From contig CANCFZ010000003.1 of assembly GCA_947377425.1 (NCBI GenBank), positions 1-32,537 on the forward strand: a stretch of DNA of 32,537 bases, in the 5' to 3' direction. Numbering within the stretch: the first letter of the stretch is position 1; every line of letters starts with the position of its first letter. This DNA comes from Flavobacteriaceae bacterium. GTDB lineage: Bacteria > Bacteroidota > Bacteroidia > Flavobacteriales > Flavobacteriaceae. Positions 1-32,537 of this stretch are shown here, in pieces. The notes below the pieces were generated by a model, which was given only the letters and a program-made list of their open reading frames with translations, was not told the origin of the DNA and searched no databases. The position numbers and the translations under genes are program-made.

Positions 1-335
1 ATAAAAATAAAATATTTGCCATGTTTCCATTAGAAGATTCTGCCGTAGAAACGTCTGGTAGTTATGAAAAATATGTGATTTTTAATGGAATTAGATATTC
101 ACATATAATTGATACTCGAACGGGCTATCCAGCTCAAGGTTTGGTAAGCGTATCTGTTTTTGCAAAAACAACCGAAGTTGCAGACGCACTAGCCACAGGA
201 GTTTTTGTATTAGGAAAAGACAAAGGAATGGAACTTGTAAATAAATTACCAGGAATAGGTTGCATCATGGTTGATGATAAAGGCAAAGTCTATTCTTCGA
301 AAAACATTGATTTAAAAAACTATAAAAATGAATAA
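1..335 (+). CDS. apbE: FAD:protein FMN transferase, C-terminal part
   Basis: This is the 3' end of a gene that begins left of the window; the frame is open from base 3. ApbE enzymes transfer FMN from FAD to a Ser/Thr of exported redox proteins, outside the cytoplasm. The visible part carries the family's C-terminal signature: a YSHIIDTRTGYP stretch (His-Ile-Asp before a TGYP turn), then ADALATGVFVLGKDKG, whose Asp-Ala-Leu-Ala-Thr segment is the conserved Mg/FAD-binding region. The in-frame ATG at 21 is internal: the reading frame runs straight through it and the N-terminal FAD-binding half would be missing. The last 8 nt overlap the start of the DUF4266 gene, so the two are probably translationally coupled. 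Identification is firm; the substrate protein is not known. Confidence 0.9.
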   Translation, partial: KNKIFAMFPLEDSAVETSGSYEKYVIFNGIRYSHIIDTRTGYPAQGLVSVSVFAKTTEVADALATGVFVLGKDKGMELVNKLPGIGCIMVDDKGKVYSSKNIDLKNYKNE

Positions 336-537
336 ATACTTAGTCTTAATTTTATTTGCAGCATCTATGACTTCATGTGTTGCTGTTAAAGAATATGAAA
401 AAGAATTGATTAATGATCCCGAAATGAAACTAGGAGCCAAAACATCAGAAAAATATGAAGTTACTTTTCAAGTATATAGAGAAGCTGCTGCTGGAGCAAA
501 CGGAGGAAAATCTGGCGGAGGTTGTGGTTGCAATTAA
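328..537 (+). CDS. DUF4266 small lipoprotein with CGCN tail
   Basis: A 69-residue protein. A hydrophobic signal (residues 3-16) ends in a lipobox-like SMTSC, so Cys17 is the likely lipidated residue and the mature protein is only about 53 residues. The mature part has an acidic and basic stretch followed by a glycine/alanine-rich tail ending GGGCGCN, with Cys66 and Cys68. This short length and CGCN ending are what I know of the DUF4266 family, which is usually found next to ApbE, DUF3570 and often a thioredoxin-like protein; the function is unknown. It overlaps apbE by 8 nt and is followed after 13 nt by the DUF3570 gene, so all three are probably one transcript. A metal-binding or redox-active tail is my inference from the two cysteines. 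Confidence 0.88.
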   Translation: MNKYLVLILFAASMTSCVAVKEYEKELINDPEMKLGAKTSEKYEVTFQVYREAAAGANGGKSGGGCGCN

Positions 538-550
538 TTATTATTAATCA

Positions 551-1981
551 ATGAAAAAAAATATTTTAATATTTGCCATTTTTAGTTCAATCGTTTCATT
601 TTCACAAGAAAAAGTAAAAGATACCATAAAAAAGTATAAAAAACCTGTATTAGAAAATGTAGAAGCCGACATATTAATGAGTTATTATAAACAAGATGGA
701 GTTCACTCAGCAGTTTCTGGCGGTATGGGATCAGAAAAACTTAAAGATTTTGCTACTAATATTACGGTTGCAGTACCAATGAATGATGATGATGTTTTAA
801 CTATTGATACTGGAATTTCGGCATATACATCTGCTTCTTCAAGTAATATAAATCCGTTTAATAGTAATAGTTCAACGTCTGGTGCTTCTGGTCACACAAC
901 AACTACAACTTCGCCTCCTTATGGAACACCATGGTTGGCATCTTCTGGGGCATCTGCATCTGATCAGTTAATTAGCTTGAGTGGAAATTACAGTCATAGT
1001 AGCAACAATAGAAACTTTATATGGAATGCAGATGTTTCTGTTTCCAATGAATTTGATTATACTTCATTTGGTTTTGGTGGAGGAATCACAAAATTATTCA
1101 ACAAGAAAAATACTGAATTGAGTTTAAAAACTAATATATATCTTGATAAATGGCGTCCAATTTATCCAACAGAATTGCACGAATATGCTAAATATGGAAA
1201 TTCATTTCAAAATAATGGTTACTTAAATGGAGTTACAATTTATAATCAAAATGGAAATGCAACAACGTCATATAAACCCATAAAGTTTACAACATTAGAT
1301 ACAGAAAAGAGAAATTCATATTCTGTTTCTTTTAGTTTTTCGCAAATTGTTACGCGCAAATTACAGTTTTCTATTTTCTTTGACTTATTACGACAAGAAG
1401 GATTGTTGTCAACTCCTTATCAAAGAATTTACTTTGCTGATGTTGCTAATTATTATATCGGACAAAAACAATATATTTCTGATTATGAATCTTCTTCCAA
1501 TATAGGTGTTTATAGATTAGCCGATGATATTGAGCGTTTACCAAGTTCAAGAGTGAAATTACCAATAGGTTTTAGAGCAAATTATTATATAAATGAACGA
1601 TTTAAGTTAAGAACTTATTATCGCTATTATACAGATGATTGGGGTATTTCTTCACAAACTGCAAATATTGAAATCCCTATTAAATTAAATGATAAATTTA
1701 CAGTTTATCCAATGTATCGTTATTATACTCAAAACGCGTCTAAATATTTTGCTCCATTTGAACAACATTTATCTACAGAAACCTATTATACATCGGATTA
1801 TGATTTGTCAAAATTCATAACCAATCAATATGGATTTGGTGTTTCTTATGTAGATATTTTTACTAATTTCCATTTGTTTGGATTTGGATTAAAAAACATT
1901 GATTTTAGGTATAATAATTATCAAAGAAATGATGGTTTAATAGCTAATATTATTACATTTGGGTTTAAATTTATTCAATAA
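551..1981 (+). CDS. DUF3570 outer-membrane beta-barrel protein
   Basis: 476 residues with a Sec signal peptide (about 1-18, ending SFSQ). Residues 50-70 hold the family-typical HSAVSGGMGSEKL segment, followed by DDVLTIDTGISAYTSASSSNI, which is characteristic of DUF3570. The rest is rich in alternating aromatic/polar strands (many Tyr/Phe pairs) and ends FGFKFIQ with a near-terminal Phe, as expected of an outer-membrane barrel. A Ser/Thr-rich low-complexity insert (about 104-138) contains two SGAS tetrapeptides (110-113 and 132-135). The function of the family is unknown. It follows the DUF4266 gene by 13 nt and precedes the response regulator by 11 nt. Barrel topology is inference; the family call rests on the N-terminal signature and the gene context. 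Confidence 0.87.
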   Translation: MKKNILIFAIFSSIVSFSQEKVKDTIKKYKKPVLENVEADILMSYYKQDGVHSAVSGGMGSEKLKDFATNITVAVPMNDDDVLTIDTGISAYTSASSSNINPFNSNSSTSGASGHTTTTTSPPYGTPWLASSGASASDQLISLSGNYSHSSNNRNFIWNADVSVSNEFDYTSFGFGGGITKLFNKKNTELSLKTNIYLDKWRPIYPTELHEYAKYGNSFQNNGYLNGVTIYNQNGNATTSYKPIKFTTLDTEKRNSYSVSFSFSQIVTRKLQFSIFFDLLRQEGLLSTPYQRIYFADVANYYIGQKQYISDYESSSNIGVYRLADDIERLPSSRVKLPIGFRANYYINERFKLRTYYRYYTDDWGISSQTANIEIPIKLNDKFTVYPMYRYYTQNASKYFAPFEQHLSTETYYTSDYDLSKFITNQYGFGVSYVDIFTNFHLFGFGLKNIDFRYNNYQRNDGLIANIITFGFKFIQ

Positions 1982-4099: not shown

Positions 4100-4609
4100 A
4101 TGAATGATGCACATTTACACATGGTTGTTAATCACTTTCCAATTATTGGTTCAATTTTTGGATTAGGAATTTTAATAGCCGGACTTTTATTGAAAAATAA
4201 TACTGTAAAAAATACAGCTTATTGTTTATTTGTAGTGGCTGCAATTTTTGCTGCTGTAAGTATGGCTACAGGAGATGGAGCCGAAGAAATGGTTAAAGAT
4301 ATGCCTAATATTGGTCGTAAAATAATTCATGATCATGAAGAAATGGCTGAAAAATTAGCACTCTTTTTATATTTATTAGGTGTTATTTCGTTACTTGGAA
4401 TTTATACAAATATAAAAAACCATTCTAAAGCAAAATTAATTTCATTTCTAGCTTTAACAATAGCATTTGTAACAGTTTTTCTAGCTAAGGGAACTGGAAC
4501 TAGTGGCGGCGAAATTCGTCATACTGAAATTAGAGCTAATGCTACTCCAGCACTTAATGCAAATCAAAAAGACACAATGCCGCCCGAGAATAAAAGCGAT
4601 GAAGATTAA
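4100..4609 (+). CDS. DUF2231-like four-helix membrane protein
   Basis: 169 residues with four predicted membrane helices (about 13-31, 37-57, 84-103, 111-130) and a hydrophilic tail. The N-terminus HLHMVVNHFPIIG matches the His-x-x-x-x-HFPI pattern of the DUF2231 family, often described as predicted haem-binding. Other candidate ligands are H77 and H79 in IIHDHEEMAEK and H141 in GGEIRHTEI, while TGDGAEEMV after helix 2 is also typical. These histidines sit close to membrane faces, as in b-type haem proteins. It follows the sensor kinase by 50 nt with its own -7 box and is closed by a strong terminator. Haem binding is family-level knowledge and not shown here. Confidence 0.75.
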   Translation: MNDAHLHMVVNHFPIIGSIFGLGILIAGLLLKNNTVKNTAYCLFVVAAIFAAVSMATGDGAEEMVKDMPNIGRKIIHDHEEMAEKLALFLYLLGVISLLGIYTNIKNHSKAKLISFLALTIAFVTVFLAKGTGTSGGEIRHTEIRANATPALNANQKDTMPPENKSDED

Positions 4610-4642: not shown

Positions 4643-4688
4643 AAAAAGATGTGTTTAGAAAAAATATTTTTTCTAAACACATCTTTTT
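4643..4688. terminator. Bidirectional terminator, perfect 46-nt palindrome
   Basis: The sequence is a perfect inverted repeat centred between 4665 and 4666, with core GTGTTTAGAAAAAATA and its complement and T-runs on both strands. It lies between the convergent DUF2231-like gene and the 45-residue membrane protein gene and would end both transcripts. With no unpaired loop it needs at least three or four central bases open. Confidence 0.85.
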
Positions 4689-4773: not shown

Positions 4774-4911
4774 CTAGTCTTTTTTGTTTTTATTACTTCC
4801 CATCATGAGAAAAATTGCGCCAACTAATCCTATGATTACTAATGCAAAAACTCCTATCATGATGAATGCTCCATTGTTCCAAGAATATAATGGAATTGTT
4901 AATTTCGTCAT
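4774..4911 (-). CDS. Small membrane protein, 45 residues, function unknown
   Basis: An ATG-to-TAG frame on the minus strand encodes MTKLTIPLYSWNNGAF, then one hydrophobic helix (about residues 16-37, FIMIGVFALVIIGLVGAIFLM), then a lysine-rich end GSNKNKKD. Positive charge at the C-terminus predicts that this end is cytoplasmic. The composition, single helix and WNNGAF segment are those of a real small protein, similar to short unannotated proteins I recall in flavobacteria, and it has its own promoter: a TAAATTTG box at 4936-4943 and an FNR-like palindrome at 4965-4980. It ends before the shared terminator at 4643-4688. The function is unknown; the upstream site suggests expression under low oxygen, and an accessory subunit of a respiratory complex is one possibility. 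Confidence 0.75.
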   Translation of the reverse strand: MTKLTIPLYSWNNGAFIMIGVFALVIIGLVGAIFLMMGSNKNKKD

Positions 4912-4935
4912 AAGAATTGGTTTTTAAAGGTTTGT

Positions 4936-4943
4936 CAAATTTA
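4936..4943 (-). promoter_or_regulatory. -7 promoter box for the 45-residue protein
   Basis: Read on the minus strand this is TAAATTTG, a perfect TAnnTTTG match 24 nt before the ATG. The -33 position falls within the neighbouring palindrome and does not match TTTG, as expected of an activator-dependent promoter. Confidence 0.6.
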
Positions 4944-4964: not shown

Positions 4965-4980
4965 TATGATAATTATCATA
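4965..4980. promoter_or_regulatory. FNR-like operator palindrome TATGATAATTATCATA
   Basis: A perfect 16-bp palindrome containing TGAT-N4-ATCA, the core of the Crp/Fnr-family consensus TTGAT-N4-ATCAA. Its centre (4972.5) is 33.0 bp upstream of the centre of the -7 box at 4936-4943, the geometry of a class II activator site. The inner 14 bp occur again before hemN at 31199-31212 with identical spacing. Confidence 0.7.
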
Positions 4981-31198: not shown

Positions 31199-31212
31199 AT
31201 GATAATTATCAT
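31199..31212. promoter_or_regulatory. FNR-like operator ATGATAATTATCAT before hemN
   Basis: A perfect 14-bp palindrome with TGAT-N4-ATCA, identical to the core at 4966-4979. Its centre (31205.5) lies 33.0 bp upstream of the centre of the -7 box at 31235-31242. It covers the place where a -33 element would sit, as for a class II activator. FNR control of hemN is established in other bacteria; here it is inferred. Confidence 0.75.
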
Positions 31213-31234: not shown

Positions 31235-31242
31235 TACTTTTG
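31235..31242 (+). promoter_or_regulatory. -7 promoter box for hemN
   Basis: TACTTTTG, a perfect TAnnTTTG match, 18 nt before the hemN ATG at 31261, which gives a leader of only about 12-14 nt. No TTTG is present at -33. Confidence 0.6.
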
Positions 31243-31260: not shown

Positions 31261-32537
31261 ATGTCTCTTTCGTTAATCCAAAAATACAATGTTCCTGGTC
31301 CTAGATACACTAGTTATCCAACGGTTCCTTATTGGGAAGAAGATTTATTTACTACAAAAAAATGGGAGAGTTCTTTTATAAAATCATTTGAGGAAAGTAA
31401 TAAAAAAGAAGGTGTTAGCTTGTACATTCATTTACCTTTTTGCGAAAGCTTATGTACATTTTGCGGCTGTAATAAACGAATTACAAAGCGACACGATGTT
31501 GAAAATCCATACATAAAAGCAGTTTTAAAAGAATGGAACATCTATTGTGATTTATTTCCAGAAAAGCCAATAATTAAGGAGATCCATTTAGGTGGTGGAA
31601 CTCCAACGTTCTTTTCGCCAGAGAATTTAGTAACTTTAATCAACGGAATTTTTGATAGAGCTGAAAAAGCAAAAGAACACGAATTCAGTTTTGAAGGACA
31701 TCCAAATAATACTACTCGAACACATTTACAAACACTATATGATGTAGGATTTAGACGAGTAAGTTTTGGGGTTCAAGATTATTCTGAAAAAGTACAAGCA
31801 GCAATTCATAGAATTCAGCCGTTTCATAATGTTGCAAAAGTTACTTTTTGGGCTAAAGAAATTGGTTATACATCAGTTGGACATGATTTGATTTTTGGAT
31901 TACCATTTCAAACTATTGACGATGTAATTGATACTATTGATAAAACTAATTCGTTACAACCCGATAGATTGGCATTTTATAGTTATGCACATGTGCCATG
32001 GATAAAAGGCAACGGACAACGCGGTTTTAAAGGAGAAGATGTGCCAAAAGACGATGCCAAAAGAAGACTTTATGAAGAAGGAAAAAAGCGTCTTGCTGCC
32101 AATAATTATCATGAAATTGGGATGGATCACTTTGCTTTAGCAACTGATAGTATGAGTGAAGCTTTTAAAGAAGGAAAGTTACATCGCAACTTTATGGGCT
32201 ATACCTCATCTAAAACACAGTTAATGATTGGATTGGGTGTTTCTTCTATAAGTGATAGTTGGTATAGTTTCGCACAAAATGAAAAAACTATCGAAGAATA
32301 TTATACTAGATTAGAAAATAATGAATTACCTATTTTTCGTGGTCACATATTAACTGACGAAGATTTAATTATCCGAAAACATATTTTAAATTTGATGTGT
32401 CAATTTGAAACTTCTTGGGAAAATGACAATCAGTTTTTTAATGAATTACCCGAAATCATTCATCAATTACACGAAATGGAAGTTGATGGATTGATAGAAA
32501 TTTTAAGTAAAAAAATAAAAATTACAGAAAAAGGAAA
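31261..32537 (+). CDS. hemN: Oxygen-independent coproporphyrinogen III dehydrogenase, partial
   Basis: The gene runs off the right edge; 425 codons are visible of a usual 450-460. It is a radical SAM enzyme that oxidatively decarboxylates coproporphyrinogen III to protoporphyrinogen IX without oxygen, for haem synthesis. The N-terminus has YNVPGPRYTSYPTVP, typical of true HemN. The [4Fe-4S] cluster motif is C61-x3-C65-x2-C68 (CESLCTFC) followed by GC, and HLGGGTPTF (109-117) is the SAM-binding glycine motif. EGHPNNTT, GVQDYSEKVQAAIHRIQP and the C-terminal HFALATDSMSEAF and HRNFMGYTSSKT further mark HemN and not the HemW-type relative. The promoter carries an FNR-like palindrome. Confidence 0.95.
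   Translation, partial: MSLSLIQKYNVPGPRYTSYPTVPYWEEDLFTTKKWESSFIKSFEESNKKEGVSLYIHLPFCESLCTFCGCNKRITKRHDVENPYIKAVLKEWNIYCDLFPEKPIIKEIHLGGGTPTFFSPENLVTLINGIFDRAEKAKEHEFSFEGHPNNTTRTHLQTLYDVGFRRVSFGVQDYSEKVQAAIHRIQPFHNVAKVTFWAKEIGYTSVGHDLIFGLPFQTIDDVIDTIDKTNSLQPDRLAFYSYAHVPWIKGNGQRGFKGEDVPKDDAKRRLYEEGKKRLAANNYHEIGMDHFALATDSMSEAFKEGKLHRNFMGYTSSKTQLMIGLGVSSISDSWYSFAQNEKTIEEYYTRLENNELPIFRGHILTDEDLIIRKHILNLMCQFETSWENDNQFFNELPEIIHQLHEMEVDGLIEILSKKIKITEKG

Follow-up and report, generated by a model that had tools for sequence, protein, structure and literature searches.

The window, by which we mean the whole 32,537-nucleotide stretch of Flavobacteriaceae DNA that was analyzed, carries a 45-codon open frame on the minus strand, here called SP, that begins with an ATG at 4911 and has a stop codon ending at 4774. 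The features needed to describe this gene and its promoter, together with those of hemN, are as follows.

4643 to 4688, unstranded: perfect inverted repeat of 46 bp (23 + 23 nt) with T-runs on both sides, read from the sequence
4774 to 4911, minus strand: SP gene, encoding a 45-aa single-helix membrane protein, MTKLTIPLYSWNNGAFIMIGVFALVIIGLVGAIFLMMGSNKNKKD; evidence is the open frame, conserved homologs, dN/dS, and a helix at residues 15 to 42
4936 to 4943, minus strand: −7 box TAAATTTG of a Bacteroidota sigma-A promoter, upstream of SP, read from the sequence
4966 to 4979, unstranded: FNR/CRP-type operator ATGATAATTATCAT, 14 bp, upstream of SP, with its center at −41.5
31199 to 31212, unstranded: operator ATGATAATTATCAT upstream of hemN, a 14-mer identical to that of SP, 23 bp from the −7 box
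31235 to 31242: hemN −7 box TACTTTTG
31261 to 32535, plus strand: hemN (oxygen-independent coproporphyrinogen III dehydrogenase, radical SAM), with a Radical_SAM match and an ATG at 31261, running off the window end

The original prediction, made from the letters of the sequence, was a single-helix protein with an ATG start and a positive tail, and the frame agrees with that description. AlphaFold2, run on 25 homologs, placed one helix at residues 15 to 42, with a pLDDT of about 95 over residues 21 to 30, and the C terminus is Lys-rich. By the positive-inside rule, the short N terminus (PLYSW-NG) would lie at the periplasmic face and the Lys-rich tail in the cytoplasm. Residues that are conserved include Leu8, Gly14, Phe22, and Val25, and Asn13 is nearly invariant. 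SP matched no Pfam, NCBIfam, or PDB family and had no match in Rfam; hits to FliL, NuoM, Hol_Tox, and other one-helix entries of Pfam, NCBIfam, and PDB were weak and scattered and were rejected as composition. The usual floor of gene callers lies below 45 codons.

The inverted repeat is a probable bidirectional terminator, shared by SP and a convergent gene for a DUF2231 membrane protein (4100 to 4609). In a different Flavobacterium (L146), a DUF2231 gene is preceded by the same FNR-type promoter, and DUF2231 may belong to the low-oxygen regulon described below; a functional link between the DUF2231 neighbor and SP was rejected, as the two are not conserved as neighbors. Elsewhere in the window (328 to 1981), between an ApbE-like end and a two-component pair, lie genes for a 69-aa Cys/Gly-rich lipoprotein-like protein and for a DUF3570-like protein of 476 aa, neither of which had an NCBIfam match.

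A search for homologs among Flavobacteriia had been proposed as the check on this gene, with a frame broken in close relatives as the evidence against it. Homologs were present in 64 of 200 same-genus genomes by a tblastn-type search and in 69 of 200 by a profile search, and named hosts include Flavobacterium aquatile, F. filum, F. fontis, F. croceum, and several Myroides species. A wider profile found SP in 136 of 350 Flavobacteriaceae genomes at an E value of ≤0.01, of which 124 were accepted at a limit of E below approximately 3e−6, and a class-level sample beyond Flavobacteriaceae yielded no credible match. The frame and its conserved residues are kept across at least 80 to 82 genera, and the median dN/dS was 0.095 over 72 usable pairs. 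Judged by these comparisons, SP is a genuine conserved protein-coding gene under strong purifying selection. Broken frames turned up in a few same-genus genomes only. The frame is intact in the nearest relatives (91 to 93% identity), but decayed remnants sit at the orthologous locus in five same-genus genomes (L270 to L274), between a DCC oxidoreductase gene and an ABC-F gene, with the FNR-type palindrome left in four of the five. Because of these remnants, SP is considered to have been lost repeatedly.

The SP promoter consists of the palindrome ATGATAATTATCAT, 23 bp, and then the −7 box, with the palindrome taking the place of the −33 element; the predicted transcription start is near 4931, leaving a 20-nt leader. 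The −7 box and operator-like palindrome that had been proposed are present, as is an inverted repeat for the proposed terminator, and the predicted resemblance to the hemN promoter extends to an identical palindrome at an identical spacing. Within the window, the palindrome class by itself was not significant (4 found versus 3.15 expected). Its significance comes from conservation and from genome-wide enrichment. The form TGAY-N4-RTCA occurs 61 to 82 bp upstream of the SP frame in 41/41 neighborhoods and 80/80 orthologs, where approximately 0.04 per 120 nt would be expected by chance for each ortholog, and the combined operator pattern was found at 7 to 16 sites per genome, versus 0 to 3 for a reversed control, in ten same-genus genomes. 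A regulated promoter belonging to SP itself, as first suggested, is therefore well supported.

Of the 80 orthologs, 69 have the sequence TAnnTTTG exactly 23 bp past the palindrome, and none has it at any of the other spacings from 20 to 27. The outer operator base was A in 69 orthologs, C in 11, and never T, so that the Escherichia coli FNR half-site consensus TTGAT is absent from all 80 sites. Activators of the FNR/CRP family classically occupy −41.5 at class II promoters. In F. psychrophilum, the sigma-A box TAnnTTTG is located at −12 to −5 from mapped starts (PMC9723704), which therefore places the center of the SP palindrome at −41.5. Strong comparative evidence thus points to an FNR/CRP class II design. 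No published description of a Flavobacterium FNR motif was found in the literature searched.

The genes downstream of the operator, read in five of the ten genomes with Pfam support, include ccoS-ccoNO, hemN, feoA-feoB, and uspA (universal stress protein), along with an MBL-rhodanese persulfide dioxygenase, a truncated globin, cytochromes c, and a DUF2231 protein. Where SP is missing from a genome, the operator element is still found at other loci. Beside ccoI, near the cbb3 operon (L382), lies the gene for a Crp/Fnr regulator that has a CxxC at its N terminus and a Crp-type HTH. Of 101 same-genus genomes, 91 encode a CxxC FNR-type regulator, in most cases about 5 kb from FixO, and its cysteines are kept. 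This cco-linked FNR was not found in the window's own genome, which is 76% complete; the contig with the cco site there spans just 8.4 kb and could stop short of the gene. The regulator beside ccoI is the probable activator of the SP promoter, and its sensing would be of the iron-sulfur type. In F. psychrophilum, the genes for cbb3 and heme are strongly induced when oxygen is limiting (PMC9723704). SP is probably switched on by an oxygen sensor at low oxygen.

A second palindrome variant, TGACYATGGTCA / TGACCGTGGTCA, was seen in same-genus genomes (L128:3492 and L143:3412), where it has on one side a Crp-family regulator gene, with a gene for an NnrS-like membrane protein after it, and on the other a divergent gene. 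A related site also belongs to a Ric/YtfE-type protein of the same genome, and the variant looks like the mark of a separate, nitric-oxide-type regulon.

Gene neighborhoods differ between genera. In approximately 33 of 41 loci from the genus, SP follows mutS2 and a DCC-type oxidoreductase gene, while in the window, where it stands alone, and in the nearest relatives it lies away from this pair. A functional link to mutS2-DCC was rejected, given that SP has its own promoter there and lies elsewhere in the window, in the nearest relatives, and in other genera. Among 60 loci from other genera, 16 have SP at the end of the cbb3 operon, in the order FixP-FixG-FixH-DsbD_2-SP, and a convergent hemN comes next in most of the 16; the hemN family is found beside SP in 11 of the 60. 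In one fully read locus (L336), the cbb3 operon that ends in SP also has FixQ upstream. None of the 16 operon-borne copies has an operator of its own, compared to 37 of the 44 stand-alone copies (Fisher p = 1.6e−9, in a test that takes no account of shared ancestry), and because of this split, the same control appears to be kept through either operon membership or a private operator.

Other neighbors also recur. A gene for an MBL-rhodanese persulfide dioxygenase is near SP in 20 of the 60 loci, with a SulP transporter in 12 and a thioredoxin in 9. A different Crp-family regulator recurs beside the dioxygenase and SP (L383 and 8 of 60 loci) and may control a sulfide island. In one genus (L280), cydA-cydB come immediately after SP on its strand, although SP has no general link to cytochrome bd.

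Co-occurrence ties SP to the cbb3 oxidase. Among 350 Flavobacteriaceae genomes, 124 carried both SP and FixO, none carried SP without FixO, 170 carried FixO without SP, and 56 carried neither (Fisher p = 1.4e−12, in a test that ignores shared ancestry, which inflates the association). The absence of SP from FixO-negative genomes holds across many genera. SP was detectable in 124 of 294 cbb3-bearing genomes (42%), and as about 58% have no detectable copy, it is dispensable rather than an obligate subunit, although some of these genomes may hold diverged copies below detection. As a control, cydA was present in 8/30 SP-positive genomes, 15/30 genomes with FixO but no SP, and 3/20 FixO-negative genomes. 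The lower frequency with SP (8/30 versus 15/30) indicates no positive link to cytochrome bd, and the bd connection prompted by the copy upstream of cydAB was rejected on this control.

The comparison itself supports the coding status of SP, the architecture and conservation of its promoter, its membership in the cbb3 operon elsewhere, and its dependence on cbb3. With moderate confidence, we propose that SP is a small accessory of the cbb3 oxidase, either a peripheral subunit or an assembly/stability helper, within the low-oxygen regulon. Strong comparative evidence suggests that an FNR-type activator, activated by falling oxygen, would bind ATGAY-N4-RTCAT centered at −41.5; it would then recruit RNA polymerase at the class II promoter, turning SP on with the cbb3 oxidase, hemN, and feoAB. 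SP would insert as one helix in the orientation predicted above and would join or assist the cbb3 oxidase, most likely as a peripheral small subunit or assembly/stability helper, contributing to its stability, assembly, or tuning. From operon, regulon, and co-occurrence, we infer that SP acts on cbb3, with which it may associate physically. Counting against a cbb3 role are the loci near the persulfide dioxygenase and the single copy upstream of cydAB.

The original prediction had offered two functions. A small subunit of a respiratory complex gains support as a respiratory link from the cbb3-operon loci, from detection in 124/294 cbb3-bearing versus 0/56 cbb3-less genomes, and from the promoter design common to hemN and ccoS-ccoNO; a membrane stress peptide received no specific support. 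A more definite version of our proposal is tentative, and we would hesitate to rely on it: that the Flavobacteriaceae cbb3 oxidase carries an unrecognized subunit of one helix, without sequence kinship to CcoM or CcoQ, whose gene moved out of the operon in Flavobacterium and retained its regulation via a private FNR class II promoter.

Some of the same evidence can be read differently. SP could be a general low-oxygen or membrane-stress small protein without a fixed partner, for instance a modulator of other membrane proteins, found near respiratory genes through common regulation. It does stand alone in many genera and at several different loci, and it is dispensable and decayed in some lineages, yet such a protein would not be expected to be missing from all 56 cbb3-less genomes, and strong purifying selection and the conserved N-terminal motif suggest a specific partner; we regard this explanation as unlikely. 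Somewhat harder to accept is a member of the same FNR regulon that acts in sulfide or persulfide handling and not on an oxidase. The frequent neighborhood of the dioxygenase, SulP transporter, and thioredoxin genes would fit, as would the presence of the same operator at the dioxygenase gene in the window's own genome and in relatives. However, SP at those loci usually has its own operator and thus forms a separate transcription unit, and the oxidase is favored both by the place of SP in cbb3 operons and by its never occurring where cbb3 is missing.

Two further explanations have very little probability. Size and hydrophobicity are what a type I toxin-antitoxin toxin or holin-like peptide would have, and 5 of 25 members gave Hol_Tox matches (best E, 0.00089) and 2 gave PepG1 matches, but every one of these profile matches is weak, and they are spread among one-helix families that are unrelated to each other, and SP of the window had no match at the curated Hol_Tox cutoff, the best value coming from other members. 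An activator-driven low-oxygen promoter, single copy number, operon membership, and cbb3 dependence fit a toxin poorly. The least credible explanation is that there is no protein gene at all, the conserved promoter being followed by a chance frame or a small RNA. The palindrome and −7 box are indeed the most conserved DNA of the locus and persist beside decayed frames, but a dN/dS near 0.1, a frame that is kept, operon copies without the promoter, and the absence of an Rfam match all argue for a protein. The reading we prefer, a cbb3 accessory, makes SP at best reading a new family of a known kind, a small respiratory accessory or subunit; no published description of the family was found in the literature searched.

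SP is a conserved, testable candidate, without a family model, from Flavobacteriaceae, among which are major environmental bacteria and fish pathogens. The FNR-type low-oxygen promoter rule for Bacteroidota that emerges with it (ATGAY-N4-RTCAT, 23 bp, and TAnnTTTG) makes regulon prediction possible.

The SP promoter resembles E. coli FNR class II promoters in its TGA-N6-TCA core centered at −41.5 and in a regulator that combines an N-terminal CxxC with a Crp-type HTH; it differs from TTGAT-N4-ATCAA in the outer base and in the −7 box TAnnTTTG. Small oxidase subunits are routinely missed, and CcoM, CydX, and CydH were found biochemically. Like SP, CcoS/FixS (PF03597) is a small membrane protein with the same FNR-type promoter, but it is a distinct gene at the operon start, and SP has no PF03597 match. 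CcoQ/FixQ (PF05545) is likewise small, has one helix, and is encoded in the cbb3 operon; the operons that end in SP have their own FixQ gene, however, placed between ccoNO and ccoP, and SP had no match to PF05545 and no sequence similarity to CcoM, CcoQ, or any other chain in PDB. The cytochrome bd proteins CydX and CydH/YnhF are comparable in their way of working, as small one-helix oxidase subunits, but SP shows no positive bd association and matches neither family model. Two reports describe CcoM of the Pseudomonas stutzeri cbb3 oxidase as a one-helix protein of 36 aa, linked to oxygen-limited conditions and long missed by annotation (PMC10433244 and PMC9264385). SP had no Pfam match to CcoM (PF05032 as cited) and no oxidase chain among its PDB matches; the two also belong to different phyla, and CcoM was found in purified enzyme, whereas SP is a candidate identified from sequence. 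Both are very short one-helix proteins tied to a cbb3 oxidase and to oxygen limitation, and CcoM would be the closest analog of SP by way of working, as distinct from a homolog.
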